Source: Sordaria brevicollis (taxonomy: Eukaryota > Ascomycota > Sordariomycetes > Sordariales > Sordariaceae). Taken from it: a stretch of 64,000 nucleotides of DNA. This document shows positions 1,659 to 55,473 of this stretch, piece by piece. The notes under the pieces are model-generated. The model ran no database searches and was not told the DNA's origin. It saw only the letters and a list, made by a program, of their open reading frames with translations. The stretch covers positions 2,108,001 to 2,172,000 of the forward strand of contig JAUTDP010000010.1 of the NCBI GenBank assembly GCA_033439795.1. Direction: 5' to 3'. Position 1 is the stretch's first letter. The number at the start of each line of letters is the position of its first letter. The position numbers and the translations under genes were made by a program.

Positions 1659-4600
1659 ATGGCAGGTCCCAGCTTCAAACAGCTCGTCTTTGAGCAGTTC
1701 TTCCAAGACGTCGTGCCACCTCCCAATCCAGAGCCCACGGAGACTATCCCGCCAGCCCCAAACGGCACAGAGCAACCCGAGCAAGATGTCAACCCTTCCC
1801 AGCCACCCATATCTTAGGCTGATGATGTCGAGGAAGAGCTTGGCGGACAACCGACGGCTCCGATAATGATACCTGTTTCAGCTTCTGACGGCGATAATGA
1901 CAATACCACCAAGAAAGACGACGTACAAGTCACCGAGATTCCGCTACCAGATGAGGATGTCCCGCTACCAGAGTCGGAGCTCGGCGATTACGAAGCGGAA
2001 GATGACCTCCAAGACTTGGTCGATGACGTGAATGCAGACGCTCGTCAAATGAGTCCGGGCTCTGAAGACAACCAGAAAAAGACGCTGTCCCCCATATTAG
2101 AGGAGTCCGAGCCAGAGTCTTCCCCCAAGGACGCAAAAGCTGTTGTCGACCCAGGGGAATCAGATGAGCCAAAGGGAGAGAGGCAGACGGAAAAGCAAAC
2201 TACCGTGCTGGAAAAGGCATCACCACAAACGGCCCCACTTGATTCTACTGCCTTACCTCAACCTCGGCCCGAAAGCTTCCCATCCTTGTATGTCACTACA
2301 GACAGAACAAGTGTTGTTACACTGCCTGGTGGGTTCCTACATTCTCACTATAGGTCACGCATGAACTAACCAAATTCCTGGACCCAGACACATTCGACGG
2401 TCACGCACCATGCTCTTCAGAAGAGGAGCAGTTGGTTGACCCAGATGGTCACGGACAGACGGTTCCAAATGACGACCAAGGTAGTCGGTTAGATGACATG
2501 AGGTACTACGATTACATTGTCATCGGTAACAACAGATAGTACCTGGATGCCAATGGCAATTGGAGAGCTCTGACGGAGGCGGCACATGAACACATTGTCG
2601 CCTGGACAAATGGGGCAGCTGAACTGCCAAGCCGCGTGGAGCCTATTGAAGGTACGCATCGCAGAACGCCTGATTTTCAGCCCGAGTATGTTGAAGCTGA
2701 CAGTTCAACTTGTCTCCAGAAGACCCCAGAAGATTATGTGATGTTTACCATCGTCCATTCTCGGATGGCGGTTCATCGGCTTCAAGCACGGTTGGTGGGA
2801 ATAGTCAGTCCGAAGATGAATTACAGAGTCCTTCGCAACAACGCCACCGGAATATCCATCAGCCTCCTATGGGTACGACTGCCTCCATGTTCAATGACGC
2901 TCTATCTTCTGAAATCATTTCTAACCCACATGCGACCCAAGTTCCCGGCGACAACGTCGTTATTCCCACTCTGAGTAGCTCATTCGACAAGAGCAAGTTT
3001 CTCGAAACTCTTTCAAAGATTTCCCAAAACGGAAAGAAACGCAAAGAGAAACTTGATCAACGGATTAAGTTGCTCGAGTCGAATACCATTACACGCCCAC
3101 TGAAACACGGAGTCCCTACTCGGGGATTCTCGGGAAATGCCAAAGAAGGATGGCATGATAACGATAAGGACTTGCAACCAGACGATCAGGCAGATCCTGT
3201 ACGCATTCCTTCTGAAGCGCTCAAAGAGTTGGAACATTTGGACGACAACATTGACTTTGCCGAGAAGATGATGAAGAAGATTGGCATGCAGAAACGTCAC
3301 TCTGAAAATGATACAGCTTTAGGACCGGAGAAAGAGCCAATCGAGGAAGAAAAAGTGCGTCAAACCAAGCAGGAGAAGGTGAAGGCCCAACGTCAAAAAG
3401 AGAGGAAGCAATCAAAAGATGCCCAAATTTCGCATGAAACGACAGATCCGGCTTCAGGACGGAGCAGTCCAGCCATCAAAGAAACCAAGGAGGAGAATAA
3501 TCCAAACGAATCTCAAGTGTCCAGATCCAAGACAGTTGAATCAAAGGCGTTCAAGGAAGCTGTAAGGAAAGTCCGGGAGGCGATGAAAGATGATACCTAT
3601 GTCCCATACGAAGAAAGAACAAAACCCAGGAACGCTGTCGATGAACCCTTGAAGCGTGCAAACGGAGGATCCAATGAACCCAGGGAATCGACCACAGAGA
3701 ACGAACAGACTGCCAAAGACCATCAGGCCATTACGAAAAGCCCCGAAAAGCCCAAGGAGCCCGCGGTGCACGAGGCAAGGAAAAAGCAGGACTCAGATTC
3801 CAAGACGCCGGCGGATGAAAAATTTGAGGAGGCCAGGGAAAAGGCCCTGAAGGTACTGACCCAAAAATCTGCAGATGGTAACCTGGGTCGAGTTGCTGAC
3901 GTCTTATTTAATGCTTTGAAGCATGCACAGGACAAAGTCGACGAACCCAAGGAAAAGAGCGAAGAAGATGAAAAGACTGTCAAAGGCCATCAGACCGACA
4001 CGAATACCGAGGATTCAGAGTCCAAAACGCCGGCAGAAGAAAGGCGTAAAGCTGAACAGGACGACGCGGACCGCAAGCTAGCGGAGCAGATTCCTGAAGA
4101 CGAGGCCGCCAAACGCTTGAAACTCGAAGAGCAGCGAAAGGCCGAGCAAGAAGAGGCAGATCGGAAACTAGCAGAGCAACTTGCCAAAGCCGATGCGGAT
4201 GAGGCCGTAAAAGCTTCCGAGCATGCACGTCGCAAGGCATCGGATGAAGCTGCCGAGATCGAAGAGGAGAAAGCCACCAGAGAGCGGGCCAAAGCGGAGG
4301 AGGCTGAATTGCTTAAGAAATTGGGACAGGCAAGAGCTAAAGTTATTGAAGCTGAAAGACTCAGAGAAGGCGAGGAAAAAGCAATCGCAATGGCCAAGAC
4401 TGCGATAGACACAGCCCGCAGGAGAGTCAATGATTTTGAGGCGAAGTTACTCCAGGCCGCACAGATGGGTGAAAGCGTAGCTGCCGATGCTCATAGACGC
4501 GGAATCCGCGAGGCACAGAAAACAATTGATGAAGCTTCCAGAGCAGAAGAAGAAGCTGCTGAAAGACTCAAGACTCGTCAAGAAGAAGAAAGAAAAGCTC

Positions 4601-7600
4601 TAGCAGCTCTCAGGGTCCTTGAGCTAGCGAGGCACGATGCCGTCAAAGCGCAAAAAGCCAAAGCCAATGAATCTTTTACATGGAAAGAGGTCTCAAACCC
4701 GAAGGCAGCACGCAAGATCATTCACGATGCAGAAAAGGCTGCATTGGCCGAAAGCACCCATGTGGAGGCACCCAAGCCCTTGAAGTCTTTTGGGAGAATC
4801 AAGCCTGCCGAGCCAACAAAAGGCAAGGAGCTCATACCAGGCGGAAAGTCGGACGTCAATGCTGCACCAAAAGGCAACACTTCCACTCCACTTGGGAAGA
4901 TCATGCAACTTGCTAAGTCAAGAAAAGAAGCCTCCAGAGAGACAGATCTCAAGCTCGCAGAGGAAGGAGCTGCGAAGCGGCGGGAGCTTGAGGCTCTTGG
5001 GGCTCGAAAACGCGCAGAGATCAAGAACAAGAGTTGGGCGAGCGTTGTCAAATCCCCTTCAACGGCCGTGGATAAACTCCATGACAAGACTGCGATTGAT
5101 ACTAAACAAACCATCCCCGCACCCAAGGAGGAAGTACTGGACAGTGCTGGCAAAGAGGAACACCAAGCCACCCCCAAGACGAATCCGCCGCAGAAGCCTC
5201 AATCCCCAGTCCAGAAGCCTCAATCCACCCCCCAGACTTCAAGTCGGTCACAGTCATGGGCAGAGAAGGCGGGCCAAGGAAGAACCGAGGATCAAGCAGA
5301 GAGTAAGCCACAGACGAAAGCTCAAGAACAGGCTCAAGCTCCAGCGAAAAGCAAACAGGTTCAAATTCTGAAGAAGACCGGTGTTCCACCTACACAGGAC
5401 CCCATTTCCAAGGATCAGAAGCCTGGAGATCCAGCTCAAGATAAATCCCAGTCTCTACCCGTCCAGGAGGCAAAGGCTTCAGCCGAAGGGAAGCCACAGA
5501 CCGATGGCTCCGTAAAGGAAAAGCCAATTTCGGCACCTGAATCCGTACCCTCGAAGCCAACAGTTGAACTTCCGCTCAAGGAGGCTGAGAGCGAACGGGC
5601 TGCTCGTCAAAAAGCCGAACAAGAAAAGGCCGAGAAGGAGCGGATTGAGCGTGAGAAGGCCGAGAAAGAGGCACGGGAAAAGGCTGATCGGGAAAAGGCT
5701 GAGCGGGAAAAGGCTGAGCGTGAAAAAACGAAGCTTGAAGAGGCGGAGAAAATAAAGGATGCACAAAAGTGGATCGAGCATTTGAAGCACAAACGAGCGG
5801 CACAGGAAAAGGCTGATCGTGAAAAGGCGGAACAGGAACGGGTTCAGAGTGACAAGGCCAAACGAGCGGCACAGGAAAAGGCTGAACAAGAGCGGATTGA
5901 GCTTGACAAGGCCAAACGAGCGGCACAGGAAAAGCTTGACGAGGCCAAACAAGCGGCACAGGAAAAGCTTGACAAGGTTAAACAAGCAGCACAGGAAAAG
6001 CTTGACAAGGCCAAACGAGAGGCACAAGAAGAGGCTGATCGTGAAAAGGCGGAACAGAAAAAGGCTGAACAAGAGCGGATTGAGCTTGACAAGGCCAAAC
6101 GAGCGGCACAGGAAAAGCTTGACGAGGCCAAACAAGCGGCACAGGAAAAGCTTGACAAGGTTAAACAAGCAGCACAGGAAAAGCTTGACAAGGCCAAACG
6201 AGAGGCACAAGAGGAGGCTGATCGTGAAAAGGCGGAGCAAGAAAAGGCTGAACGTGAAAAGGCGGAGCAGGCAAAGGCTGATCGCAAGAAGGCGGAGCAA
6301 GAAAAAGCTGAACAAGAGCGCATCGCAGACGAGGAAGCCAAACGTGAAAAAGCCGAGCGACATCGTATTGCACTTGAGAAAACTGAGAAGGATCGGATCG
6401 AGCGGCTTGCGAACGAGGAGAAAAATCGTCAAACTGCCGAGCGTGAATCTGAACGATCAAAGTCAGAGCGAGAGAAACACAAAGGCGACGAACTCGAGCG
6501 ACAGAGACTCGAAGCCCAGAGAACTGCACGTGAAGAGGTGGAAAATGGAGCGGCTGAGGAAAACAGACGCATGAATGACCATCCGGAAGCTGAAAATACC
6601 AAGCCAAACCACCAACATAAGGAGGACAAGGCCCCGGTGAAGAAGCAAGTGGAGGAGCGAGGCCCTACCAACATACCAAGTTCGAGTTCCGATGATTGGG
6701 AATTCGCAATGCTGAAATTAGTGAAACTGGCAAGAGAGAAGGAGGAGGCTTCACAACGCCGCCAAACGCTTTGGGACGAAGCAAAGCGTCATAAAGAGAA
6801 AGGTCATGAACTGGGACAGAAGGTCAAAGAACTTCAACGCAAGGCAGACGAGGAATTCAAGCAGAAAAACCGCAAAGGGAAACTGAGCCAGGAAGAGTGG
6901 AAGAAGGAAAAGCTTTCCTGGGAGGAGTATAAGAGGTCGTATGCAGTTTTGATCGACAAATTTGACAGGGCTAGGCGGGAAGAGCAAGCTGCAGACCGAG
7001 AAAACATGCGAGAACAAAAACGTGGAATGGAAGAACTAGAACGGGAATTTGAAGAAAGAAAACGGAGCTTTGAAGAATCAGAACGGAGAGTCAAGTACTC
7101 GGATGCAAAATTCGATGACGCATTCAATGAGTTTCGGGCCAGATTACAGCAAATATGGGGTTCAGACACGCCCAGGCTGCCCGAACAGTCTCCAAGCACT
7201 GAGGACCCGTCCCAGGCCAATCTCGTCTCTGGCGGAGATCAGCCAGGGCCTTCTTCATCGGCAGTTCAGTTTAGGCAGACTTCACCACAACCCAGAGAAT
7301 CTGGAAACTCGGGTGCACAAGAGCGGTCATCAGAAGGGCCTGCGAACTCTGGAGCCAAATCATCAAGCGTGCCTCAAGCCCGTCGAGGACCTGAGATTGT
7401 TTCTACGGAAAGTTACAATGCGTCTCGGAAATCAACGCTGGCCACAGAGCATCAAGAGACGCCCCAACTCGAAGCATCACTTGATAACTCCAAGCACCAG
7501 CCCACAGAAGTCACTGACGAGTTCTGCGAGGAATGTAGATGGATGTTACAATGGAAGCGTAAGATCTTGTACACCAAGTCTCTCCTTGATTTAGATCTCG

Positions 7601-9223
7601 TACTAATGGTAGACTACAGCTTGCCCATGTGCTGCATTCACACGGCGTACTTGCATGATTTGCAATTCCTGCGGGATTTTACACACCGTCGTCTTTTGCC
7701 CGACGCACAACTTTCTTTAGTATGGAGGATCGGCTTGGCGTTTTCACGCCGGTAAGAGACCTCCGGTGCAACAGCCACGAAGCGACACCAGTGCGCCAGA
7801 GGGACAATACAGTCATCACGAGATACCTCTTCAACCAGGGTTTTCTTCAGGTTCACAACAAGGATACTCTCCAGCTTCACTGCAAGGATATACTACAGGT
7901 TCACATCCCGCACCCCCTCGAGATCCCATAGCTTCTCAAAACTCACATCAACGACCTCAAGGACATACAGGCTCTCAAGTTGTGTCGGCATCGGGACGAA
8001 CGTACAACTACCAGCCATATACACAAGTAAACAACTACCAGGGAGGGACCTACATGCCCCAGACAAATTGGAATGCCCCTCAATCAGAGTTTTACTCACC
8101 TCGCGGGGCTATGGCTGGACCGGCCGCATCAGGGGCCTACAATTACCAGACATCATATACGAGCGGTAACCAAGGACAAATCTACGGACCGCAAGTGCAG
8201 TGGATCGGATGGCAACCAGGCTCTTATGAGATTCAACCGCAGACCAACTATTCCCAAGGACCATCAAGACCGCGAGGAGAACCCATATATGTCCCCAAAG
8301 ATTTGCTTGCTCCTGGGCCCTACAACAAGCCACATCGACCTGAAAGTCAACGTCCGATACTTTATGACTTTGAAGGGCGGAGCCGAGTACCACAGCCAAG
8401 AATTAACCCGCCTCCGTCAGAAAAGCCTCGCTCGGAGAAGCCTGCGTCAGAAGTTGTTCCGCCTGAAGAGCCTTCCTTAAGGAAATCTACAAATGTCGAC
8501 CAGAACCTGGATGCTCATCAGCCACGTTTCAACCGGCCACATTCGCCGGCAACAGAAGAACAACTTCGTGATCCCGACAGACAAAAGTCAGAAAGCGAGC
8601 CTCACCCGTCAGAAATAACACCCTCAATGGAGCCATTGGCCGGAAGTCCCACGCCAACCCGAGCGGTAAGCAGTTCACCAAGATTGGGCCACCCAGAATG
8701 GTCAAGCGCCAGGAACGACATGCCGCCTACTCATGAAGAGGATCGACATGGCGGCGGCTCGAGTCCGTACGTGGTATGGCGGGAGACTGCTAATCCTCAT
8801 GAAAAGTTGCTTCTGGAAATTCTAAACGGAGGTGGCAGTGGCAGTGGCACTCAAACGGAGCAAAATACCCCGCGGGCTCCACTTGCGTCGATGGATCCGC
8901 CGTCATTTTCACCGCTTTCGAGTATTCCTGAGGGTAGCGTGGGGGATGTATGGAGGGAGAAGTCCGGAGAGGAGATGGCGGTACAAGAGGATACAAGGAA
9001 TGGCGATGGAGATGCTCCTCCAGATGAAGCTGGTGGCCGAACTGAAGCTGCCGGTGAGACTGGAGCTGCCGGTCCAACTGCAGCTGGTGGTCAACCTGGC
9101 GCAAATGGTCAGACTCTAGCCGGTGGGCAAAGTGAGGCCTCCAAAGTCAACGGTCGATCTAAAGATTCTGGTGAAGCTCAAGCCGCTGTGAAGGATCCTG
9201 CTGGCCGGAGGAAGTCCATCTAA
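1659..9223 (+). CDS. Giant coiled-coil WY-module protein with three in-frame UAG codons
   Basis: I resolve four exons: 1659-2328, 2388-2651, 2720-7558 and 7620-9223. The introns are 59, 68 and 61 nt, with branch-like CTAAC, CTGAC and CTAAT. Together the exons give 2459 codons in one frame if three UAGs are read as sense: 1815-1817 (codon 53), 2537-2539 (codon 274) and 7718-7720 (codon 1958). Order: acidic N-terminus; a WY module at about 2510-2620 whose invariant Trp is the second UAG; a very long Lys/Glu/Ala coiled coil (about 3000-7150), including a 61-residue tandem duplication; a Cys-rich segment across the last intron (FCEEC, CMICNSC, VFC) that could bind zinc; and a Pro/Gln/Tyr/Gly-rich C-terminus. 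Without recoding only a 52-residue peptide is made. Role unknown; the coiled coil suggests a structural or scaffold protein. The alternative is a pseudogene, but the coding stays clean for 7 kb. Confidence 0.75.
1800..1821 (+). promoter_or_regulatory. Predicted hairpin around UAG 1 of the giant gene
   Basis: CAGCC (1800-1804) pairs perfectly with GGCTG (1817-1821). The 12-nt loop ends in the U and A of the in-frame UAG (1815-1817), so the adenosine is the last loop base and has U before it and G after it. Fungal A-to-I sites favour a U at -1 and hairpin loops. Base pairing is seen by eye; editing is inferred. Confidence 0.5.
2521..2549 (+). promoter_or_regulatory. Predicted hairpin around UAG 2 of the giant gene
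   Basis: CATC-GGTA (2521-2528) pairs with TACC (2540-2543) and, after a 2-nt TG bulge, with GATG (2546-2549). The 11-nt loop (2529-2539) contains the whole UAG (2537-2539). This UAG replaces the conserved Trp of the WY module. Confidence 0.5.
5881..6246 (+). repeat. Tandem duplication of 183 bp inside the coiled coil
   Basis: Two nearly identical 183-bp units (5881-6063 and 6064-6246) each encode 61 residues beginning AEQERIELDKAKRAAQEKL. Within a unit a shorter 10-11 residue AAQEKLDxxK repeat is also visible. Frame is kept. The near-identity suggests a recent unequal exchange; the unit is below the length usually needed to trigger RIP. Confidence 0.85.
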
Positions 9224-9997: not shown

Positions 9998-10048
9998 GAA
10001 TCATCCATCGCATCCTAGCTCGGGGTGTGAGATCATCTTTTTTGGGTT

Positions 10049-12313: not shown

Positions 12314-13218
12314 ATGTCGCACTCCAAGTATTTCAAAGCCATGTTCGAGCGAATGCACGAAGGCCAACCACACTACACCCGCAAATGGGCCGTCAAGTAA
12401 GTCGTCCTCACCACAATCCATATGCAAAGCCATTGCTAACTCTATCCAGGGACGCAAAACCAACTGGCCTCACAGACGCCCAGCGAAGGATTGCAGCTCC
12501 GCCAGATAACGGCGAGCCAGCCGCTGCTTTGTACGCTTTCCTCGACATCACACAGTATAAGCCTGACTGGCAACCTGTGGCAGTCGAGATCATGACGCGC
12601 CTCGATAATAACCTGGAGTACGTCCAACTCGACAACGGATTTTGGTACCTGCTGGAGGAGGACGGCAGTTACAAGCACATGACCGACGCCCAATTCAAGG
12701 ACTTTCTCAAGTGGAAAGCGGAAAAGGACGCGGATGCAAAGAAAGAGGGCGCAAGAGACCCGGATGAGACGGAGAGTGACGAGAGCGAATACGTCGCCGA
12801 TTTCGAGGACCACGATTCCGACGACGAGATGATCACCCCGGACTCTTCGGTTGAGCTGATCGACCCCGAACTCGACAAACTCAACTTCGAGAAGGATGAT
12901 TCCAGCTAGGAATCGGAGTCTCGCGAAGGAGTTAAGGACGAGGATGTTGAGGAGAAGGAGGAGAGCCAGATTCAGGTCCGCATCTTCAAAAAGACCGGAA
13001 CGGTGATCGACGAGTTTGGGCTGCTGGACACTTGGAAGAACTTTCAGTGGAAGCACTATTACGACGAGGAGGATCTGAAATTGGACAAGTGCCACTGGTG
13101 GATGGTTACTGACCGTCGGGCTCTCCCGGCTACCAAACCGGGTGTGCCAAAGCTGGGTGTTACTGTCCCGGAGGGCCTGTTCTTTTGGTTGCATGATCCG
13201 GTCAAGTACGACAATTAG
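12314..13218 (+). CDS. Two-module protein (WY + TDG) interrupted by UAG
   Basis: Exon 1 is 12314-12396 and exon 2 is 12450-13218, separated by a 53-nt intron with GTAAGT, GCTAAC and a CCAG acceptor. The total is 284 codons. The WY module lies at about 12590-12720 (YVQLDNGFWY, then MTDAQFKDFLKW). An acidic linker leads to an in-frame TAG at 12907-12909 (codon 181). The same frame continues for 102 codons through a TDG module (about 12985-13215: VIDEFGLLDTW, CHWWMV, LFFWLHDPVKY) to the true stop. A short product would have 180 residues, the recoded one 283. Function is unknown. This is the clearest single example of the UAG architecture in the window. Confidence 0.85.
12898..12914 (+). promoter_or_regulatory. 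Predicted hairpin around in-frame UAG
   Basis: GATTCC (12898-12903) pairs perfectly with GGAATC (12909-12914) around the 5-nt loop AGCTA. The UAG (12907-12909) puts its A as the last loop base and its G as the first base of the 3' stem. An outer U-G pair can extend the stem. Confidence 0.6.
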
Positions 13219-13898: not shown

Positions 13899-14808
13899 AT
13901 GGAGCACCCAACAGGTAAGAACTGGCTCCCCGCCTGCACTATTTCAACCACTAACAGCTTTACGGTAGCCCCTGCTGAGGAGGTCGTCATGCCGACCCAT
14001 TCCGCTGACGTGACCCCCATGGCCAAGAACACCAAGGAGAACAGCAAGCCCTCTCCCCGGTCCAGCGCGAATGCTGACCAACATGCCCTTGCGGTTGTTG
14101 AGATCACGGAACTCACCAAACGCATTGCCCTCGATGGCCCTGCCGGCCAAGACAAGGCGGACACGGCCAAGAACAACAACGTCCTCCAGCCTGACAACGA
14201 TCGTATCACGAAGATTGGTAACAAGGACGCCCCTACTTCATCCAAGGACGCGAAGCCTTCCATCACCGACACCGAGCTTGCTGTTACACAGCAGAAAGAT
14301 GACAATAGCACGCAACTCTACAAGCCTGACCAAGAAGTGTAAGTCCATCATCTCTGTTCTGTCTTCTAGCAACTACTAACATTACTCCCATCCCAGGACC
14401 GCCAACAAAGCCCTGATCACCCGCCGCACTGACCTGGCCTCTGACAATATACCTGACCTTGACTATAATACTACGACCGTCGATACTATCCCTGTCCCGT
14501 ACGTCTACCCGCCCCGCAGGCCCAATATTTTTAAGAAGCGGGGACTGAAGCGCGCCGCGGCCCGTCCCGTCTATGTGTGGAGTAAGGAGTCCGGCGTCCA
14601 GGATATCATTGACAAAGCTGCCAAGAACGCTGAGGATGGCGACGACGACGGAGAGGAGTTCACGGCCGAGGATCTCAAGGACATCCAGTCGGCGCAGGAA
14701 GAGTACGTGTCAAAGAAGACGGAGGCTTTTAAGCAAATGGTGAGCCAGCACTGCTGGCAGACTCGCAAGGTGGTGGATTTGGGAGAGGCTTTTGCTTTGG
14801 AGGATTAG
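13899..14808 (+). CDS. YPPRRPN-family protein, copy 1
   Basis: Three exons: 13899-13914, 13969-14338 and 14397-14808. The introns are 54 nt (GTAAGA...GGTAG) and 58 nt (GTAAGT...CCCAG with CTAAC); the joined frame has 266 codons. The first intron is a multiple of three and lacks a stop, so retention is possible. The N-terminal half is polar and looks disordered. The C-terminal half carries the family hallmark YVYPPRRPNIFKKR, an acidic stretch, then a basic helix and a WQTRKVVDLGEAFALED end. It is longer and more divergent than the next four copies. No known domain is recognised. Confidence 0.75.
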
Positions 14809-15250
14809 AGTGTCAGTCTGTTGATGTCAGGGGGAGGGACAGGAATGTGGGATATGGGAGTCGCGAGAATAAGGAGTCAGGTGCTGTGATGGATACGGTG
14901 GAATTAAGGATTGGGCAAGTACTATTGCTGGGGTTCATCTTGTTTCAAGTACTTCCTGCTGATTATCTACTGTGCTTGTACTGGCTCCATAATAGGACAA
15001 TTATAACCCCCTGATAGCTCATCCTTCAACTTCTCGATCTGTTCTTAGGTAACCTTGTGACACTTGCTTGACAGTGCTGTCAACTACTCCATAAGTTCAC
15101 AGCCGTAGGTAATCTACTCTTACTCACACATCTTTACTATATTAGCGTGACGCTCAAGACAGACTCATATGAAAACACCAAGCAGTTAGACCTTGGCGTT
15201 GCCAGACACATCGCCCACAGCCGTGACACTCCCGCTCTACTCACTTCCAA
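14809..15250. other. Intergenic region
   Basis: It contains the 3' flank of copy 1 of the YPPRRPN family and no supported gene. The promoter motifs of copy 2 begin just downstream. Confidence 0.5.
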
Positions 15251-15480
15251 CGCAGGTTCATTAGATGCTGTCCGGGGCGACTGTCGATGTATGAGTTGTC
15301 CTGTTCATGGCTGTTCATGGCTGTTCATGGCTGTTCATGGCTGTTCATGGCTGTTCACGACTTTTTAACCTGTTTCACGTTCTTTGCCCACACAACAACC
15401 TGTTCATGGCTGTTCACGACTGTCCTCCAATTCTGCAAAGCTGTTCAAGCTTGAACAGCTGCCTGTTCACGAATCCCAGG
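15250..15480 (+). promoter_or_regulatory. TGTTCA promoter array with exact 10-bp spacing
   Basis: The unit CTGTTCATGG is repeated five times in direct tandem, followed by CTGTTCACGA (15301-15360). Further copies occur at 15400-15475, including CTGTTCAAG beside TTGAACAGCT, an inverted pair. The 10-bp spacing puts each copy on the same face of the helix, as for cooperative binding of a transcription factor. The start codon of copy 2 lies at 15635. Confidence 0.65.
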
Positions 15481-15634
15481 CTGTCGCCTAGATGTAGTAT
15501 ATCAAGCCAGAAGATAATTTCTTCCCCTTCTTGTTTTTCTTTCCTTCGACATCTCACATCGAGTATTACACCTCGCACCCCAAAAGGCACAGTCTCACCC
15601 AAGTCGATCCCGCACCACCGAACGATCATCCGCA

Positions 15635-16198
15635 ATGTCAAACCACGCTTCCGCCAAGCCCGACCCCGTTGTCACAAAGATGGCTGCCCTGCCTAAGCAC
15701 GACGCCGACCACACCGTCATGAACAACGCCGATGCACCGGCTTCGACCACTACGGACATCCAGCCCCATGCGGAGGACGAAACCCCTATGCCGACCAGCA
15801 CCGAGACTACCAAGTCGATCGTTCCCCTCTTCAGCAAGACCGGACCCAACTTCAACATCCCAAATAGCGCCGGCCCCGCTTGCACCGATCTGCAAAGCAC
15901 CCGCCCCGTTCCGACCGTTTACCCTCCCCGCCGGCCGAACGTTTTCCGCACCCGTCAGAAGAACGTCCGCTACCCCATCTCGGGTCTTAACGCAGTCGCG
16001 CCCGTCAACGTTGGCAACCAAACCGAAGACCTCGAGGCCGCCGACGGCTTTCCTGTTGCAGACATGGAAGAATTTCAGGCTGAGATTCAGGAGAAGATGA
16101 GGAAGAAGACCGCTTCGTTCATGAACAAGGTCGCTCAGCGTACTTGGACGGAGAGACCAGTGGAGGACTTGGGAGAGCTCTTCACCATTGACAACTGA
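15635..16198 (+). CDS. YPPRRPN-family protein, copy 2
   Basis: A single exon of 187 codons plus stop. A Thr/Pro/Ala-rich N-terminus with a few acidic residues leads to PVPTVYPPRRPNVFRTRQKN at about residue 90, then a conserved block (YPISGLNAV, DLEAADGFPVADMEEFQ) and a charged helix ending TWTERPVEDLGELFTIDN. The start is chosen from the in-frame ATG after a C-rich leader, as in the paralogues. There is no signal peptide, membrane segment or known enzyme motif. The high Arg/Lys content around PPRRPN might suit nucleic-acid or protein binding, but that is a guess. Confidence 0.8.
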   Translation: MSNHASAKPDPVVTKMAALPKHDADHTVMNNADAPASTTTDIQPHAEDETPMPTSTETTKSIVPLFSKTGPNFNIPNSAGPACTDLQSTRPVPTVYPPRRPNVFRTRQKNVRYPISGLNAVAPVNVGNQTEDLEAADGFPVADMEEFQAEIQEKMRKKTASFMNKVAQRTWTERPVEDLGELFTIDN

Positions 16199-16794
16199 GC
16201 GTGGGATGGAGTTCTCCCCGAGGAGAGGATGGATGGTGTGATGGTGCTGGAGAACAGGATATGGAGATGTGGACTGATGGACGCATGATGTTCTGGAGGA
16301 AGGCACGAGATGGTGTTTTGGCCCTAGGGGCGATGTAAGATAGACACCCTCATCGTCATCTTGGTAGCATAACAAAGTCAAATTGCTGCCTACTTCTAAA
16401 TGCTCCATTTGCTGTGATATGACCTCGTGGCCTTTGTTGGGTAAGTAACCGTTCATTATATCTCGAATTTGCTACCTATTGCTCCTCTTGTCATTTGTTG
16501 TAATATGTTCTATACTTTTCCAAATTTATTTGGCCGTAAAGACACCCTTTTTAATGGCCACCGACTTGGGATAGAGGTCATTACCATGACTGGTAAGATA
16601 CATATCCATCCTTATTGTCATTAGCCTTCAAACTGAGAAGCCTCAGAGAGTTTAACCAAGGTACATCCGTCTTGACAGGCAAATACCATCAATCAATTAA
16701 CCAGTCAGCCAGTTTGTGACAGTGGTCACTAGTATCCGGCCTTCAAGCACCAGGGTAGGTTGCTTGGTGACCCGTCAACACGATGAACCTCGAG

Positions 16795-17080: not shown

Positions 17081-17237
17081 CGTCAGCGATGGACTGGCTT
17101 CCAATTTTTCTCTTCCTTCTTCATCTCACATCGAGTATCGCAACATCGCATATCGTACCCAAAGAAGCCGCAGTCACACCGACGCCGATTTCGAACCACC
17201 GAACGAATCACGATATCGCTAGTCTCCAAACTCCAAG

Positions 17238-33753: not shown

Positions 33754-33758
33754 CCAAC

Positions 33759-39770: not shown

Positions 39771-40464
39771 ATGTCCCCCTCCTCACTCTTATACCTCGGC
39801 ATGATCATGCCCGAAGACGAATACAACGATCTCCTCGGCGGGTGTTCGATCTGGAAGACCAAAGACCTCGAGGCCGCCAAGCCTCCTCCACCATCCATTC
39901 CCAAGGACATAATCGTCACAGATCCTCAAGGTAACTCGAAATCCATCCTCGCCAATTTAGATGTCATTATCGCATCATCAGCCAAAGCCAAAGCTAACGC
40001 TAACGCTAACAAATACAAGCCCACACCTAGACCTACCTCTACTCGTAGGATTCCTTCGCACTGGTACGCCAAGCCTTGCCCGGCCGCCCAATTCTCAGGC
40101 GGTGTCGCACCTAATGAAATCATCGACCGCCCTGACAACGACTTAGCGTACGTCCGGTCGGGAAAAAACGACTTGTGGTATCGGTGGCATGATGGGGAGG
40201 CGACGGCTGAGATGATGACGCAGGAGGAGTATGAAGATTTGTTGAGTTGGTTTGGGAGTCTCAAATTGGAAGAACAGATGCTGGAACAGAAAGCTAACGT
40301 TGTCCAGGTCCAAGTTCTTATGCCTCCTGTCATTTTGGTAAACTGATGAAGAAGGTAAACAGTTTCTTGCTGAGGTTGAGGGGAAGAAGGTTAGGCAGGG
40401 TAAGAAGTGGAAGAGGTGCCCTTGGGGTTATAGCACGTGCAAAGAGGCTGCTGAAGCGAAGTAG
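39771..40464 (+). pseudogene. WY-module protein with frameshifted C-terminus
   Basis: From ATG 39771 the frame runs 191 codons to a TGA at 40344-40346 and includes a WY module (about 40135-40250: YVRSGKNDLWYRWHDGEAT, then MTQEEYEDLLSW). Just before the stop it reads PPVILVN. Dropping one A of the AAA at about 40341-40343 gives VTDEEGKQFL, the TDG signature, and a frame open to a TAG at 40462-40464. So a 1-nt insertion probably cut the protein. An in-frame ATG further upstream (39525) also exists, but the leader resembles non-coding CA-rich sequence. It lies next to the retrotransposon. Programmed frameshifting is possible but unsupported. Confidence 0.6.
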
Positions 40465-41388: not shown

Positions 41389-43191
41389 ATGTCTTCCACG
41401 CTCTGATCTTCGGGGCTCGCTGCCCACAAGTACCGGCTGTCTTCGTTGCCGACCATCGCCGATGTGATGGACATTGCCGACGCTGCTTTTGCTCGTGCTT
41501 TGTCTGTTGCCATCCACGATACCCTGCCCGATGTGTTCAACCATCCCGCGCCGATCGATGAGCCCAAGGCTTCCCTTCCCGAGAACCAGGACATCGAACT
41601 CTCCCAGCCGATTACGACCCCCGATGCCGACCAGACGCAGACCGAAGACGCTGAGCCGACTCGCGCCACCGAAGAATTCGCCGTCGTTGTCCCTGACGGT
41701 TCGGTTTTTGCTATGGAGTTTGTTGAAGAGCCTGAGCCCACCTCCGCCGTTCAGCAAATCGAGTCTACAACACCCGTCGACATTGATATCGATGACACCC
41801 TGACCTTGCCTCCCACCCCCGAGGCTCACTCGTACCACCATGCCGCTCCGGTAATGGAAATCCTTGAGGTCAACATCAGTTCTGCTGCTCCTATCCATGT
41901 CACAGAGTCTGGTATTGATGATCTTGGGGCTTCGGCCTCCAGCGTCGACTACAACAGCTTTGAACGCTTCCTCGACGAAGACCGAATGTGGGGAATCCAT
42001 CGCCCTGCTCTGCGAAAGCCCTCGATTCGCCCTTTCAAGGCCACTGAGAAGCCAGAAATCGTGGTCCTCCCAAGTGTCAAGGCCGATGAGAAAGTTGCGA
42101 AGGAAGTCCCGACCTACGTTAGCGCAGGGGCCAACAACATATGCACCTCGCTCGGGGATGACATCACCCACCACCACGGACGTAACCTGTCCATCGAGTC
42201 GACAGAATCCCATCAAACCGCCAACAGCGACGCATCCACGGAAACCGACCTCACGACCCCGGATACCGCTTCCTCGAGCCCCGATGGCACCCACAAGCCG
42301 GAGCCCGCTACCCAACCGCCCACGATTCCGCTCATCGTTATCACCGAGCATATCGAAGTCGACCCCGAGACCACCCCTGCGTCGCCGGTAATCCCCAGCA
42401 TCATCATCACGGAACCCACCGAAGACTCCCCCGATGCCTCGGATAACGCCGCCCCGATCATCGAAGGCGAGGGCGAACTCCCAACCGCAGTGTCCCTTCC
42501 ACTCTTTGAACACCTCTACGACTACGCGTCTCTCAACTTCTCCGCCGAGGACATGGCCAACCTCTGGGTCACGCAAACCGTTGTGCAACCCGGAAATCCC
42601 CACGAATATGCCCGACTGAACGATGGCTTCTGGTATATCGTCGAGGACGGAGAGAATATGCGCATGATGGTCGAAGAGGAGTACAACCAGTTTGTGCACT
42701 GGGTCATGGGAATGCAGGAAAACCAGCTGCAGGTCGTCCAACCGGTCTACAACACCACCCCCGAGGTCTGCGACAACGGCCGTCCCCAGCATCTCGGTCC
42801 CAATTGGACTCCCAAGCTCGCGGATTAGGAGTCCGAGGGCTTGGTGATCCAGGAGGATCAGACCGAACAACACCTCGACGTCGCCGAAGATGATGAGAAG
42901 GACTGGGCGGAGTTGCTCGGCTGGAAGAGTCGCACTGAGCTCGGCCGGGATTGGGAAGTTCTCAAGTCATTTGCCCACCCCGAACATCCCGACAGCAAGT
43001 ACGCCTTCGGTACCGACGACAAGTGGTACTTCGAGTACGAAGGAATGTTTCGCCAGTTGATGGAAGACGAGCTGGACCTGCTCCACTGCCGCATGGAGGA
43101 TAACTCAGCTCTTGCCGATGCAAATGCGCAGAAGGCTACCACCAACCGCTGGGGGCTTGAGACAATCACTGAGGAGGAAGAGGAATGCTGA
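41389..43191 (+). CDS. Tandem WY-module protein with UGA at codon 6 and UAG between modules
   Basis: The ATG at 41389 aligns with the starts of the paralogues at 44830 and 47771. Codon 6 is TGA (41404-41406) where both have TGG: MSSTL-stop-SS against MSSSLWSS. Otherwise the single exon is open for 601 codons, apart from TAG at 42826-42828 (codon 480). If the UGA is a real stop, translation could start at ATG 41467. The N-terminal region has FERFLDEDRMWGIHRP, shared with its two neighbours. The first WY module is at about 42600-42705 (YARLNDGFWYIVEDGEN, FVHW) and a second after the UAG at about 42945-43095 (YAFGTDDKWYFEYEG). Function unknown. Confidence 0.78.
42806..42834 (+). promoter_or_regulatory. 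Predicted hairpin around in-frame UAG
   Basis: GGACTCC (42806-42812) pairs perfectly over seven bases with GGAGTCC (42828-42834). The 15-nt loop ends in ATTA, so the edited A would again be the last loop base, and the stem starts at the G of UAG. Confidence 0.6.
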
Positions 43192-44829: not shown

Positions 44830-46589
44830 ATGTCTTCCTCCCTTTGGTCCTCCGACGTCGCGGTCCACGCATACCGGGTAAGCAATCCCAACATGGCCGT
44901 CCTCAAGGCGATCTTGAACGGAACATTCGAGGCTCACAGTGACCCTAGCCCAGCCCAAGTCTCCAACCAGCAAGTAAGTTCGATCCCAACGTTCCCCTTT
45001 ACCGGTGTTTCATCGATGCCAACTCCTGTAAAGGATGGACCTGCCACCGAAGTCGACGATAACTCCGAATCGGACGACAGCACCCAAGATGTCCGCAAAG
45101 ATGATGACCAATCCTCCATCGCGGTCGCGGAATCCGATTACGTCTCCTTCCCACCCTTCGACGGCCAGACCTCCCCCATCGACGTCGACAAGTATCATCA
45201 CACTCGCAAGGTGTCCACTGAGTAAGTACCCCTCCTTCCTTGCATTGGCTTCGCATGTACGTACATATCTAGGTAGAAATATGCTAACTTTTTTTCCTTT
45301 ACAGAACGACGTCTTCGCAGAACTCCAAGACCACTGTGAACAGTGACAGAAGCAAGAACACCGCCGAGACCAATGACACGGAATACACCCAGCCGTCCAT
45401 TGCCAGCCCCGAAAAGAGACAATGCCAAACCAAAGCCCAAAGCGACGAAACCGGCTCGGCCCGCAACGCCAGCAACCCCACCGGCTTTCGATCATTCCCC
45501 ACCCTCCCGCACGCGCCTTCCCCTTGCGCCGCCGATTCACGCTCACCCACGCCCCTGGACCTAGGCTCCGCCTACGGCTCCTCCAACGAAGACACCACCA
45601 CCTTCGACTACGCCAGCGACGACGACTCCTACTACAGCGACGACGCCGACGACAACCACAGTATCACAACCGATGACGAGTTCTCCGACCTCTCCATCGT
45701 CCACACCGTCGACCGCGAAGAATACGGACTTCAGTACGTCCTGCTCTCCAACTCGCAATGGTACATCTACCACGACAACCGCCGCATCTCGCGCATGCTC
45801 CCTTACGAGCGCGAAGACTTTCTAGCCTGGATGAGCAACCCCGATACCAAGCCCGCGGCGATCATCGAGGGTTAGGAGCCCGAGTTGAACTACGTGTGCT
45901 TGGAGGTTGGGGAGCATGAGTGCTTTGATCCTGATCATGACAACGGAAAGAAGCAGCCGAAGCTGAAGGCTATTGTGAGGGGCCCGGGAGAGGTGGAGAT
46001 GGTTACCTACTACTCCGACGACGAGGAACTCGAGCAAGAAGATGACAAGGAAGAGCAACACCCCATGGCGGAGTTCAGCTGGAAGAAGGAGCAGTACATG
46101 CCCAAGAACTGGCAAGTCCTGGCCTGGTACGAGCATCCCAAGGGCGAATACAAGTACAACATCCTCGGAAGCGATCATAGATGGTACTGGGCTTGCGATG
46201 GCGGGTTCATGCTGATGGTGGACGAAGAGCTGGAGGAGTTCAACTCGTGGCGCTGGACCGATTCGGATGCTGTTCTTATCTGGAACGGTGATGTCAAAGA
46301 GGAGGAGGAGGCTCCGGCCTGTGTTCCTGCTCTCGAGACTATCCAAGAGGAGGACGAGGAATCTGATGAGGAGCTCTGCAAAGTCAAGGAGGATGATGAG
46401 CGGAAGCCTTCGGGTGCGGACTGGGACTTGGACGACGTTTTCGAGGAGGTCACGAAGGCTTTTGTGGGTCTTGTTATCGTTGATGGAAAGGCCAAGGAGA
46501 AGCAGGATCTGGTGGAACTCTGGCGCCAGGAAGTCGTTGTCGAGGATAGTGAGGATGATGAAGAAGAGGACTGGAAGTGCTTTATCTGA
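44830..46589 (+). CDS. Tandem WY-module protein with UAG between modules
   Basis: Exon 1 (44830-45221) and exon 2 (45305-46589) join across an 83-nt intron (GTAAGT...GCTAAC...TTTACAG) to 559 codons. The TAG at 45873-45875 is codon 321. The N-terminus MSSSLWSSDVAVHAYRVS matches the paralogue at 41389. The first WY module is at about 45727-45835 (YVLLSNSQWYIYHDN, then FLAW). After IIEG-stop-EPEL an acidic segment leads to a second WY module (about 46100-46255: NWQVLAWYEHP, GSDHRWYWACDGG, EEFNSW) and an acidic C-terminus. GTAAG-like sites inside exon 1 (44879, 44973) could give minor splice forms. Short form 320 residues, long form 558. Function unknown. Confidence 0.8.
45866..45884 (+). promoter_or_regulatory. 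Predicted short hairpin around in-frame UAG
   Basis: GGG (45869-45871) pairs with CCC (45879-45881) around a 7-nt loop TTAGGAG that contains the UAG. Outside these pairs a tandem G-A/A-G mismatch of the stable sheared type and a C-G pair (45866, 45884) could extend the stem. It is weaker than the others. Confidence 0.4.
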
Positions 46590-47770: not shown

Positions 47771-49777
47771 ATGCATATCACGCTCTGGCCGACCGCCTTC
47801 AAAGCTCAAGCCATGTGCCGCCTGTCCATGCCGACAATCGCTGACATCAAAGCGATGACAATCGCAGCCCTCTCCGCATCTAGCGTCTCTTATGTGGCCG
47901 AATCCCCCGAGGCCTTCGAGATCGCCAGTATGCTTGACACCCCGCAAGGATTCCAGACACTGTCTGTGAACAACTCGACCCATGACGCCGGCCTGAATGC
48001 CCACAAGATCATGAAGGCTCGGCACATGAAGTCCACCCTCGAGACCGTCCCCGAGGACAGCACCCCTACCGATGTCGACAACATGGCTCACGACTCCGAT
48101 AGCCACGACGATCGCAAGGATACCACCCAGTCGGCCGATGACCACGCTACCGCGCCTCTCCCCATCGCGGACGACAAGCCCATCCAAGTCGCCGACAACG
48201 CTCACCAAGCCGACACCATGGCTGATGACAACTCCGAGAACATAAACACCGCCGAGGATGGACCCATCACCATGGAAGAGGAGGAGAAGCACACCTACTG
48301 CCACGCCTATCCCCTCACCGTCGATATTGTCGAGGTCACCGAGTCCACGGCCCCCAAGATCACCGATGTCTCTGACGCTGACGACACAAGCGTCTCCGTC
48401 TCGAGCATTGGCCACGACTTCGAGCGCTACCTGCAGGAAGACAAGATGCAGTGGGTTCATGACAAGCCCAAACACCCCAAGGTATATACCGCATCCCGCA
48501 AGACTAAGAAGCAAGCCATCGAGGCCACTAACCCGAGCACCCAAGACGGCAAGCCCATCGATTCCGACACCGAAGCCGATGCTCGTCATCACGCTCGCAC
48601 ATTGTCCAACACCTCCACCGACTCTGACAAGTCCACCGACAGCGATGCCACCGATGCGAGCTACACCACGGCCCCTGAGATTCTCGACAGCGATGATTCC
48701 AGCCCCGACGCCAGCGCCATCGACGAAGCCAAGTCCGAAGATGCCACCCCCTCAAGCATCACCAAGCCCCAGGCCACCGAGGACCCTTTCGACAAGATGT
48801 ACAACACCACCAACCTCACCCCCTCCGACCTCGACGTCGTCCTCATCCTCGAGCGTCTCGAAAACAACCACCGCTACGTCCAAATGGCCTGCGGCTCCTG
48901 GTACGTAGTCGAAGACGATGACGAAATGCGTCAGATGACCAAACCCGAATACCAGGAGTTCATCGACTGGAACAGGCGCACCCCCGCTATCACCCGCGAT
49001 GCCTTCAACAAGCAGATGCAGAAGGACGCCGAGGAGGGGGTCATCACCAGCAAGGATGTGGCCATTATTGACACTTTGGATGATGATGAAGAGGAGGAAG
49101 TCGAGCTTGCTCGTTCGGCTGAGATTGAGGAGGAAAGCACCTTCAACCCCGACGATTAGGAACCCGTTGAGGAAGAGGAGGACATCTTCGACCACGCTGG
49201 CATGTCCGCTCCCCAAGAGGACTTTGCGCAAACCTGCCACGGCATTGAGCTGTTTGAGTATGATGACGACGAGGAGTATGACGACGACGACGAGGAGGAC
49301 ACCCCCACCTCCGCCCCCGCCGCCGGCCCATCCACAGCCACAGCCACGGCCAACGTCCCCGCTCCCCGTGTGCGAGCCGCATGGGAAACCACCCCCGCCA
49401 CCTGGAAACGTCCCGAAGACATGGACGAAGACTGGGCCGTCATCGGCGAGTTCACCCACCCGGACGGCCAGAAGCAGATTGTCGTCGGCAACGATGCGAA
49501 GGTGTACTGGATGCACGAGGGCATGTATCGCGGGTTGGATGTGACGGAGCAGCCTCGGTTTTTGAGGTGGGATGGGACTGCTGAGCAGGCTGGTTGGACT
49601 GAACAGGCGCAGCAGGCTGAGCAGGTGCAGCAGGAGGAACAGGAGGAGGAAGAGATGGAGGAGAAGAGGACTTGGGTTAGGAGGCAGTGGGTTAGACCCG
49701 GGAAGATGACCAGGAAGTGGGATTGGTGGACGCTGGAGTTGGAGACCATTGTTGAGGAGGATGAGAGTGAGGAGTAG
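47771..49777 (+). CDS. Tandem WY-module protein with UAG between modules
   Basis: A single exon of 669 codons; TAG at 49157-49159 is codon 463. The N-terminus (MHITLW, then CRLSMPTIADI) aligns with the gene at 41389. The conserved N-terminal motif reads DFERYLQEDKMQWVHDKP, preceded by YCHAYPLTVDIVEV. A long Asp/Ser/Thr-rich spacer leads to the first WY module (about 48866-48970: YVQMACGSWYVVEDDDE, then FIDW). After FNPDD-stop-EPVEE an acidic stretch and a second WY-like module follow (about 49405-49570: DWAVIGEFTHPDG, NDAKVYWMHEGMY). It ends in a Gln/Glu-rich tail. Short form 462 residues, long form 668. Function unknown. Confidence 0.82.
49141..49172 (+). promoter_or_regulatory. Predicted hairpin around in-frame UAG
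   Basis: CTTCAAC (49141-49147) pairs with GTTGAGG (49166-49172) over seven positions with one G-U pair, leaving an 18-nt loop with the UAG (49157-49159) near its middle. The large loop makes it less certain. Confidence 0.4.
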
Positions 49778-51825: not shown

Positions 51826-54800
51826 ATGTCTTTTGCACCCGGATCTTCCGCCATCGCGCACCTCGCCGGCCCCAAGATGAACGACCTTCTCGACTCGCGC
51901 CACCCCAGCGCCGATATCGACAACGCCCTCATCCCGACGGCCAACACCACCGATCCCCCAGACACTGCCGACATGGATCACACCCTCAAGACCATCGTCG
52001 CCATGATCATCATCTCGGCCCTGATTGGCAATACGCTTCTGTCTGCCATCAGCGTCTTGATTGTCCTGGTCGCCTATCGAATCACCACCCCCGAGACGAC
52101 GACCATCACCGATGCCGCCCTTCCCTGCGAAGACCTCACCCCCTTGAAGCCGGTCGACGCCCCCTCCCTTCTCGACAACGCCGCTCCTGCCAACCCCACC
52201 CAGGACGCGCGCATCGACGATACGCCTTCCGAAGCCATCCCTCTCACCGAGGAAGAAGTTCACGTCTACCGCCACACCCGCCCGACCTTTGACATCACCG
52301 AGGTCCTGGCACCCGCCCCCGACTCGAAGATCGACATCTCTCTCGCGATCAACGACGACAGCGACTGCACCGGCGGTCTCGCGTCCGACGTTTTTGACTT
52401 CAAGACTTTCGAAAGGTATCTAGCGGAGGATAAGATGTACCTCACCCACCCCATCCACCCGAACCCGGCCATCACCTCTACTGGCCTGAAGGTAACCAAG
52501 AAGACTAACAAGAAGAAGTCGAAGAAGAACGCCACAGCGGCCCGACCCGCTCCCAAGCTTTGTAAGTACAGACCAAATCCTATCATCCAAACAATGGGAC
52601 CAATTGCTAACTTTGCCTTAGTTGACGTTGCGCCTTTCAACAACCAGCTCGCTAGTGTTATTGCGGAGGAGGTTCAAGCGGTCCGTCCCGCTCGTTTCGG
52701 TCACAAGAATGGTAAGCCATCCAGAGTCCAACAACACCATGGAGATAATGCAGCTAACTAGGAGATAGCCAAAACCACGGTGTTCAACCCCAAGCTTTCC
52801 ATGATTGCTGAGGAGGACGAGATCGAAGAAGACATCGAGAATGAAGAGCATAAATTGCTGCAAGAGGAGGACATCGAGCTCCCGCGCTCCGGCTCATCCG
52901 ACGAAGAAAGCGGCCATGACAACAGTTTCAACAGCTGCGCCGATCTCGAGGACTTTTCCGAAGATGAGGAGGCCGAGGACATCATCACCTTTGCCAAGAA
53001 CCCCAACAGCTGTGCCGACGTCGAGGACTTTTCGGACGAGGAGGACATCATTGCCTTCGCCAAAAAGGTCAACCGCATGTGCGAAGAGCTAGAAAAGGTC
53101 GAACGCTTCTCTGAGCCTGTCGAGCATACCATCGCGCTCGCTCAGGACTGGGACGCAACGTTCAGGAAGTGGGATGAGGAAGAGTTGGAGACCTTTGACT
53201 CTGAGGAAGATGCCATCGCCATGGCCAAGAAGATTGAGTTCGACACCCGCCCGAGCCCGCCCCCGACCCCGGTTCGCGCACCCTCTCCTATCGAGATCGT
53301 CTCGCCTACCCACACTCCGGAGGGCACTCCACAGATTATCGAGCTTCTTACCCATACTCCAGAGGGCGCTCCTTGCTTCACCGAGTCCGGCTTCCTTATC
53401 GAAGATGCCAGCACGACTCCAGCCGACGAGATTACCGAAGCCACGACCACTGCCAAGTTCACCGAGTCTGGCTTCCTCATCGAATCCTCGCCGGTCGAAA
53501 GGATCACCGAAGTCCCTACCACTGGCTTCACCGAATCCGGCTTCCTTGTTGAGACTCCTAGCAACACTCCGGCCGATCAAACCCCCGAGGCCCCCGAAAC
53601 CCGCTTTTCCGAGTCCGGCTTCCTCATCGAGAGCCCCGACAACTCACCGGCTCCTTACACACCCACACCCGCTAGCCGCATCTCCCGGATTCCCATCTCT
53701 CGGATCCCTAAGGCTACCCCCAAGGCCGTTCTTCAAACCAAGGTCAACCCTCAGACCGAAGCCACTCCCAAGGCCGCGCCTAAAACTCCTATCGCCATTG
53801 ATCTTCGCAAGTCAATCTTTGGCCCCGTTACCCAGAAGAGGATCTTCCCTTCGCCAGAGGAGAAGCCCATTGTTGGAGCGCAAGATGAGAAGCCTACCTT
53901 CGCTTCCCCCATGAAGCCCATCTTTGCCTCCCCGGTCGGATCCCCCTTCGGCCAGCACAACCGGAAAGTCTCCAACGAGTCCAACACCACCGAGGAGTCG
54001 AACCAAACCAACGACACCGTCGGTACCACCGCAACCACCGCACCTCCCGACTCGCCGAAGCTTGCATACTCAACCCACTCCACCCCCGACGACAATGTCT
54101 ACTCCTACCAAGCCATGACCGGCTTCACAGTCTGCCTCTCCGCGAAGAAAGGCACGGGAATCACCTTCGATCCCATCGCCATCTCCGGAGAAAACATCAA
54201 CTACGACCGTGACACCCTAAAGGAAATCTCTCCCTCACCTACCTCCTCCCAGTTCGGCCCTGCCGACCACAACCCCGACCCTAACCAATCCACGGCATCC
54301 GCCACATCCGAAGAGGAACAATGGGAAACCCCCTACCACTACTCCACCACCACCCCCGCCGCCGACGGCGAAGAAGAAGACGAACTCCAAATCCTCGCCA
54401 TCCTCGAACGTCCCTCCACCGGCCGCAAGTACGCCAAGCTCTCGTGCGGGAACTGGTACGGCTACAGGGAAACACCCGACAACAGCGACAACGACGACGG
54501 GTTTGAGGTTGATCACCTCACCTGGGACGAGTACGAGGATTTAATCCGGTTTATCGTGGGCGATGTGGCTTCTTTGCCGACCAAGTTGCACAGGTTTGCG
54601 AGGGAGGCGGCGGAGGAGTGTAAGGCTAGGGTGCAGGAGGCTGCTGAGGCTAAAGAGGCGATTGCGAATGCCACTGAGACTTAGGAGGTTGAAGGGCAGG
54701 GTGCTGACGCTGAGCCGATGCATGAAGTTGAACACCATGAGCATGGCCATGAGGTTGAGAATGGTGAAGTAGAGGAGGGGAGCTACTGGGAACTGGTACC

Positions 54801-55473
54801 CGCTGAGGCTACCGGTGCCAGCATTGGGAGTCTTGTTCCTGCTGAGGGGTATGAGAAGCGGGATATGGATGCCAGTATTGGCTCTCTTGTTCCTGCTGAT
54901 GAAACCCAGGAGGAGGTGGTTTCTTGGGATGAGCCGGAGGCTATGATGGCGGAGATTGAGGCGATGCTTGGGGGCACCGGCGACAACACCGAAGTCACTG
55001 AGCAGAGCTTCACTGAAGACATCACGGAGGGCGCGGCCAAGTCTACGGTCGAGGACATTACCAAATCCGACGCCGAGCAGATCACCGAGACTACCGACGA
55101 GCCTATCACCACGGAGGTTACCGAAGACATCATCACCCAGACCACTACAGACTCAGACCTCACCCCAGAACTCGAAGACACCGAGGAGGCCAACACCACC
55201 ATCTCCTCCGACCAACCCGACGAAGCATGGTTCAAGCCCCACCAAATGCCACGCAACTGGTTCGTCCTCGAACACGTCCGCTGCCCGGGCGCCGACGTTT
55301 CCTACTACGCCGAGTACGTCCGCGGCTCCGACGACATGTGGTACTTCCGCCTTGAGGATCCCATCGAATACCGCCCCTTGGACGCCCGCGAACTTCGCTC
55401 GTTCTTGAACTGGCGCGCTGCGGAGAGGCCGATGACGAGTATTGTGGAGGTTGAGGGGGAGGAGTTTTTCTAG
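51826..55473 (+). CDS. Large membrane-linked tandem WY-module protein with UAG
   Basis: Exons 51826-52561, 52622-52711 and 52769-55473 join to 1177 codons. Introns of 60 and 57 nt have GTAAGT or GTAAGC donors and GCTAAC branch points. The TAG at 54682-54684 is codon 914. Near residues 50-85 a hydrophobic stretch (IVAMIIISALIG, then LLSAISVLIVLVAY) predicts one long or two short membrane segments, unlike its relatives. FKTFERYLAEDKMYLTHP matches the motif of the genes at 41389 and 47771. An acidic middle and four FTESGFLIE repeats (about 53375-53625) follow. The first WY module is at about 54400-54555 (YAKLSCGNWYGYRE, EDLIRF). After the UAG a long Thr/Glu-rich linker leads to a second (about 55243-55415: NWFVLEHVRCPG, SDDMWYFRLEDP, FLNW). 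Function unknown. Confidence 0.82.
53372..53630 (+). repeat. Four FTESGFL repeats in the membrane-linked WY protein
   Basis: The encoded units CFTESGFLIED, KFTESGFLIES, GFTESGFLVET and RFSESGFLIES occur at about 53375, 53457, 53526 and 53607, separated by Thr/Pro-rich spacers of 16-20 residues. They may be short binding motifs. Confidence 0.8.

Follow-up and report, generated by a model that had tools for sequence, protein, structure and literature searches.

The window analysed here, 64,000 nucleotides of Sordaria brevicollis, carries a tandem cluster of related genes, all on the plus strand, whose reading frames are interrupted by UAG codons. We conclude that these UAGs are very likely edited, in a premature-stop correction that would yield a longer protein only in the sexual stage (probability about 0.85); the editor is probably Tad2-Tad3-Ame1, acting in perithecia. 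The preliminary description of this DNA listed ten such UAGs and proposed their sexual-stage recoding to UGG, and every one of the ten is present at its position. An eleventh in-frame UAG lies to the left of the window, at C2:2107337 (L015:9337), with 464 open codons before it and 315 amino acids after it; together with the ten it makes up the eleven sites considered below. Reading frame, conservation, hairpins, loop register and flanking bases were computed; from these we infer the editing, its restriction to one stage, the enzyme responsible and whatever role the long form has.

The genes share a module of about 50 residues, with a W-Y core followed by a helix, found in 11 intact copies on either side of the stops. 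Hyphal translation would end at the UAG, giving a short form with one module in several genes. In perithecia, Tad2-Tad3 with the sexual-stage cofactor Ame1 would turn UAG into UIG, which would be decoded as UGG (Trp), giving a long form that gains a second module. The UAG adenosine would lie in a small hairpin loop; at seven of the eleven sites this loop has 7 nt, with U-A occupying positions 2–3, and would mimic an anticodon loop. Fungal A-to-I editing in perithecia is described as the work of Tad2-Tad3 with Ame1, with a preference for U at −1 and for hairpin loops, and as correcting UAG stops in about 70 genes of Fusarium graminearum (PMC11156358, PMC4817773, PMC11087585; here and below, papers are cited by PMC number for the excerpts available). 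The S. brevicollis genome yields six PF00383 matches, not individually assigned to Tad2, Tad3 or Ame1.

A scan of the window covered both strands and every reading frame and asked for stops flanked on either side by 60 or more open codons and by the best-scoring coding frame. Eleven stops were found: eight TAG, three weaker TGA and no TAA. The frame margin exceeded 0.1 on both sides for seven of the eight TAGs (52759 included, 2537 not) and for none of the three TGAs. Seven of the ten listed sites were recovered (2537, 12907, 22324, 28814, 42826, 45873, 49157). Site 54682 failed the best-frame criterion and rests on its homologues, while 1815 and 7718 were ineligible, having fewer than 60 open codons upstream. 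For 1815 the frame is open from the ATG at 1659 and there is no usable intron. Site 7718 requires an upstream intron, 7559-7619 (donor GTAAGA, branch 17 nt from the end, CTACAG), which would bring a Cys/His-rich exon into frame with it; this is the least certain of the ten.

The eighth TAG of the scan, 52759, is absent from the preliminary list and was dropped: a canonical 57-nt intron, 52712-52768, removes it. Introns were predicted by a rule demanding a canonical donor, branch site and acceptor, a length of 48–250 nt and a preserved frame, and two such introns cover 52759. This TAG, though in frame with the exons on either side, sits in a canonical intron, so being in frame does not suffice to make a TAG an editing candidate here. 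At the remaining sites the UAG has coding sequence on both sides and is not removed by splicing under this rule; 7718 is less certain in this respect. At 12907, 28814 and 42826 the first ATG past the stop falls within the conserved C-terminal module, hence a separate downstream gene is unlikely there. A comparison sample of 20 loci of 10 kb elsewhere in the genome, six of them AT-rich, gave 11 stops in the same scan (five TAG, four TGA, two TAA). Of these TAGs, one is in a cluster member (L015:9337), two neighbour OLD deaminase genes, one lies in a gene unrelated to the cluster (L017) and one is a weak case (L029). The genes with in-frame UAGs are as follows.

1659-9223, plus strand: gene 1, about 2,460 codons by a hand model from translations, with three internal UAGs; it contains a twelfth module copy, broken by UAG 2537 at the Trp position, a long coiled coil and a Cys/His-rich stretch
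2329-2387, 2652-2719 and 7559-7619, plus strand: likely introns of gene 1, predicted joins
12314-13218, plus strand: gene with UAG 12907; the module and an acidic linker precede the UAG, a linker and the C-terminal module follow it, and a TAG at 13216 ends the frame
21418-22713, plus strand: gene with UAG 22324; 302 codons up to the stop, counted from the first ATG, and 128 amino acids past it, terminal TGA at 22711
27765-29434, plus strand: gene with UAG 28814; 205 amino acids past the stop, upstream exon presumably joined via an intron, partial model
41467-43191, plus strand: gene with UAG 42826; module on both sides of the stop
44830-46589, plus strand: gene with UAG 45873; exon 1 by eye, frame with the stop open from 45288, module on both sides
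47771-49777, plus strand: gene with UAG 49157; module on both sides, annotated as B0T20DRAFT_487284 (P0006)
51826-55473, plus strand: gene with UAG 54682; module on both sides, TAG 52759 taken out by intron 52712-52768
1-290, plus strand: 3' end of the further member whose UAG lies left of the window (L015:9337; 6-bp stem, 8-nt loop)

The RNA around the UAGs carries a common signature. We folded 30 nt on each side of each UAG, following the available parts of PMC4817773 and PMC9600606, and as controls placed a TAG in silico at 1848 other in-frame codons around the sites. All eleven sites place the UAG adenosine in a predicted hairpin loop, compared with 32.8% of the controls (p=4.7e-6), and the per-gene ranks of hairpin energy combine to a Fisher p=1.2e-6. 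Among 2150 natural TAGs from 14 sampled loci the adenosine is in a hairpin loop in 32.7% (the site set in that comparison numbers ten, with 52759 included). Several loops had been spotted by eye as UUAGGAG, with the A third, before the registers were tested. Of 42 loop registers tested, the 7-nt loop with the A third ranks first, present at 7/11 sites vs 4.4% (p=9.5e-8), and the next three are concentric with it. The result holds when 1815 and 7718 are excluded (5/9, p=1.9e-5), with Watson-Crick pairs only and no G-U (5/11, p=1.3e-7) and against 1704 natural TAGs (background 5.9%, p=6.4e-7). None of the four apparently terminal TAGs of the cluster has a stem in the 7-nt register. The anticodon loop of tRNA, with U33-A34, is the natural substrate of Tad2-Tad3, and the predicted 7-nt loop with A third is the geometry of such a loop.

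1815-1817, plus strand: in-frame UAG, 52 codons past the ATG; 7-nt loop UUAGGCU, 4-bp stem
2537-2539, plus strand: in-frame UAG at the module Trp column; 7-nt loop AUAGUAC, stem CAG/CUG
7718-7720, plus strand: probably in-frame UAG; 7-nt loop UUAGUAU on a 5-bp stem that includes G-U pairs
12907-12909, plus strand: in-frame UAG; 5-nt loop AGCUA on a 7-bp stem, flanking bases all as preferred
22324-22326, plus strand: in-frame UAG; the loop reads UUAGGAG, with just 2 bp paired in the 7-nt register; the best hairpin in a short window has −13.7 kcal/mol
28814-28816, plus strand: in-frame UAG; 7-nt loop GUAGGUA, 9-bp stem
42826-42828, plus strand: in-frame UAG; 7-nt loop UUAGGAG, 4-bp stem
45873-45875, plus strand: in-frame UAG; 7-nt loop UUAGGAG, 3-bp stem
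49157-49159, plus strand: in-frame UAG in a 10-nt loop; flanking bases all as preferred, no stem formed in the 7-nt register
54682-54684, plus strand: in-frame UAG; 7-nt loop UUAGGAG, 3-bp stem including a G-U pair

The stems differ in sequence among the sites yet still pair. Across the eleven sites 84.8% of the cells of the three stem pairs are paired, vs 46.8% after shuffling, and none of 500 shuffles reaches this value. The number of stem cells changed on both sides is 13, again unmatched in 500 shuffles, and sliding the partner strand lowers the pairing. The flanking bases preferred in F. graminearum are C/U at −2, U at −1, A/G at +1, G at +2, A/G at +3 and A/G at +4 (PMC9600606, available part). 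All four free positions carry the preferred base at 6/11 sites, vs 6.0% of 1936 control codons (p=1.6e-5). The likeness of the residues following the stops (E-S-E, E-P-E), pointed out earlier, is better explained at the RNA level, since GAG and GAA constitute the preferred +2 to +4 context and are part of the loop. Outside the family, the unrelated gene from the genomic sample (L017:8302, minus strand) is likewise interrupted by an in-frame TAG between coding stretches, and the flanks of this TAG are the preferred ones for editing throughout (GGTTAGGAAG).

UAG 2537 falls on the module column that has Trp in 10 of 11 modules, which is the residue that editing would yield. Two annotated S. brevicollis proteins match the window: P0006 over the whole query, and P0007 (B0T20DRAFT_463398), 100% identical over the aligned part and stopping at UAG 12907. 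P0008, a 73% identical protein from public assemblies, has its end at the residue corresponding to the 12907 stop. Both halves of the 54682 gene are present in one protein in P0003 (Neurospora sp. IMI 360204), an annotated protein that may hide an intron, and in P0005, whose tail is odd and probably frameshifted. Three further relatives (P0001, P0002, P0004) start after the position of the 54682 stop and are 54–69% identical over the aligned part. These relatives were compared as proteins, by residues and end points. In three protein searches, every relative that bears a name comes from Sordaria or Neurospora, and most matches bear none.

Several observations weigh against this interpretation. 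Four of the eleven sites (12907, 22324, 49157, L015) miss the 3-bp criterion of the 7-nt register, and each of the five sites without complete flanks has the preferred base at just one or two of the four free positions. Counted per stem pair, double changes are no more numerous than in shuffles (241/500). By eye, P0003 seems to have Gln near the 54682 stop, in a gapped stretch of the alignment. In the 28814 region the dinucleotide indices resemble those left by repeat-induced point mutation, RIP (TpA/ApT, high under RIP, is 1.18, and (CpA+TpG)/(ApC+GpT), low under RIP, is 0.82). The register is absent from all three non-family in-frame TAGs of the same genome (two beside the OLD genes, one in L017); hence it marks the UAG family and not all candidate stops here. 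Finally, the 210 kb examined outside the window is a small sample.

The foremost of the alternatives, itself improbable, is that the TAGs lie in introns or serve as 3' acceptors, the mature mRNA having no internal stop. TAG is indeed an acceptor trinucleotide, pyrimidine-rich sequence precedes 1815 and 7718, the dropped TAG 52759 truly is intronic, and introns of a non-canonical type are possible. However, no canonical frame-preserving intron removes any of the ten UAGs or L015:9337; taken alone this is weak evidence, as the rule covers just 6 of 240 control codons. The only canonical intron over 45873 breaks the frame. The public annotation of P0006 cuts out the 49157 stop as intron 49058-49219, omitting 54 codons, but with a poor donor (GTGGCC) and a poor acceptor (AAGAG, that is, GAG). 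Moreover, open frames reach the TAG in the same frame, and splicing leaves the hairpins, the register and the covariation unexplained. Decay is less probable still. RIP prefers CpA and so produces TAG from CAG and TGG, and by this or another C-to-T change the genes could be young pseudogenes, or could simply end at the TAG. In line with that, AT-rich blocks beside the genes are heavily RIPed (indices 1.24/0.19 and 1.15/0.32), P0005 is uninterrupted, P0007 is annotated to end at the 12907 stop, and the indices at 28814 have been given above. On the other hand, the RIP signature is absent from seven of the eight gene regions and the scan yielded no TAA. The frames past the stops stay open, those of 12907 and 22324 closing just after the C-terminal module; the stop is kept in P0008, and the three relatives wholly downstream of 54682 retain the identity given above. 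Neither are the hairpin statistics accounted for by decay.

Two further explanations accept that the UAG is passed. Editing by an OLD deaminase on viral challenge, as for zao in Neurospora, instead of by Tad2-Tad3-Ame1 in perithecia, has a small chance of being correct, ranking after splicing and before decay. The genome has two OLD genes (OTT_1508-like deaminases), each near an open frame broken by a TAG (L013:7968, plus strand; L014:1735, minus strand), and these frames may be the zao partners known from Neurospora. C2H2 finger-like motifs follow in one of the two neighbours (L013) under a relaxed pattern, while a strict pattern finds none in either. OLD is also described as favouring hairpin loops and U at −1 (PMC12754623, in part). 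But the OLD genes are on other contigs (C21, C12) with none found near the cluster, the two TAGs beside them have other flanks (CATAGA) and lack the 7-nt register, and six family sites fit the complete perithecial flank preference. A Pfam scan of 28 segments of the cluster and its neighbours gave no match above the cut-off, and so no zinc-finger target, the Cys/His-rich stretch of gene 1 not having been scanned as a spliced exon. Programmed readthrough by a near-cognate or suppressor tRNA, needing no editing, is the least probable of all. It would likewise preserve the downstream frame and a conserved UAG. However, classical readthrough contexts carry C after the stop, and the base following the UAG is G at 9/11 sites and U at 2/11. 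TAG appears to be a normal terminator in the cluster (288, 49775, 55471, 13216), and a loop register with the U-A of an anticodon would be unexpected; the hairpins, too, are left unexplained by readthrough. UAG-to-UGG editing in the sexual stage, while inferred, is the best explanation, supported by the hairpins at all eleven sites, the register, the flanks, the Trp column at 2537, the stop in P0008 and the relatives of the 54682 gene, and by the peptides reported from the congener Sordaria macrospora (see below).

By hand count the family has 12 members, nine with an in-frame UAG (eight in the window and one to the left) and three without.

23931-25060, plus strand: member with module, no internal UAG seen
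30506-31144, plus strand: member with C-terminal module only, assigned by eye, no internal UAG seen
39414-40346, plus strand: member with module, no internal UAG seen

In four genes (42826, 45873, 49157, 54682) the UAG lies between two module copies; in the others it divides an upstream part from a different C-terminal module. Four of the 12 members (L015, 22324, 28814, 30506) rest on the C-terminal module, recognised by eye or by a weak E-value. Hence the designation of eight paralogous genes is fair as far as the shared module goes, but the members with only the C-terminal module are weakly related (E 0.14) and assigned partly by eye. Genome-wide searches with two single modules, insensitive as such searches are, gave three and six matches, all in the window; a search with the C-terminal part of the 22324 gene added a single doubtful match outside it (C7, E 0.36). 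AlphaFold2 models predict four strands and a helix for a downstream module copy (predicted local distance difference test score, pLDDT, 79); for an upstream copy the prediction is three strands and a helix, plus a short bridge (pLDDT 69).

A broader proposal, to which we would give even odds, is that the family is built on an editing-gated switch: selection would keep the UAG within a mimic of the anticodon arm in most members, even as linkers and stems diverge in sequence, and longer proteins, often with two modules, would be made in the sexual stage only. If so, the loop register would act as the recognition code that lets a tRNA deaminase select these mRNAs, and a tandem, fast-diverging family limited to the sexual stage would be a natural candidate for a role in genetic conflict or mating recognition.

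Similar systems are known. The rfk-1 gene of Neurospora Spore killer-2 likewise involves RNA editing of a sexual-stage gene, according to the title of a work cited in PMC8092558. A UAG-to-UGG change reportedly extends its protein. The earlier comparison with rfk-1 is apt as regards the kind of edit and does not extend to kinship, drive or spore killing. The premature-stop-correction genes of F. graminearum, PUK1 and about 70 others, are alike in the in-frame UAG, U at −1, the hairpin loop and a long form made only after editing in perithecia (PMC4817773, PMC11156358), but the available text describes them as single genes, not a tandem family, and describes no loop register. OLD-ZAO of Neurospora crassa shares the premature UAG, the hairpin-loop preference and A-to-I correction; it differs in a dedicated adjoining deaminase and zinc-finger targets, neither of which was found in the S. 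brevicollis cluster (PMC12754623). The closest in taxonomy, stop-loss editing in S. macrospora of the same genus (e.g. white collar 1), is documented by peptides showing translation beyond edited UAGs for 15 transcripts; these are separate transcripts, in the accessible part not described as a tandem family (PMC6794485).

Premature-stop correction has been known gene by gene; this locus has eleven stops in nine related genes. At most sites the stem differs while the kind of loop is constant, which makes a natural series for finding out how Tad2-Tad3-Ame1 recognises its substrates and whether editable stops are selected or just tolerated. Such genes can be mis-annotated: of two public models here, the first terminates at the UAG and the second omits the surrounding stretch as an intron.

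Other features of the region are as follows. Inside the cluster, 14380-20622 on the plus strand, there are five tandem genes of a second family, with a PPRRxNxF ... VEDLGE motif and no internal UAGs noticed. Upstream of one of them is a perfect 10-bp tandem repeat (CTGTTCATGG) of 5.7 copies, at 15301-15357. Two direct repeats of 171 nt, 87% alike (33756-33926 and 39239-39409), bracket an AT-rich RIPed block of about 5.3 kb that looks like a decayed inserted element.

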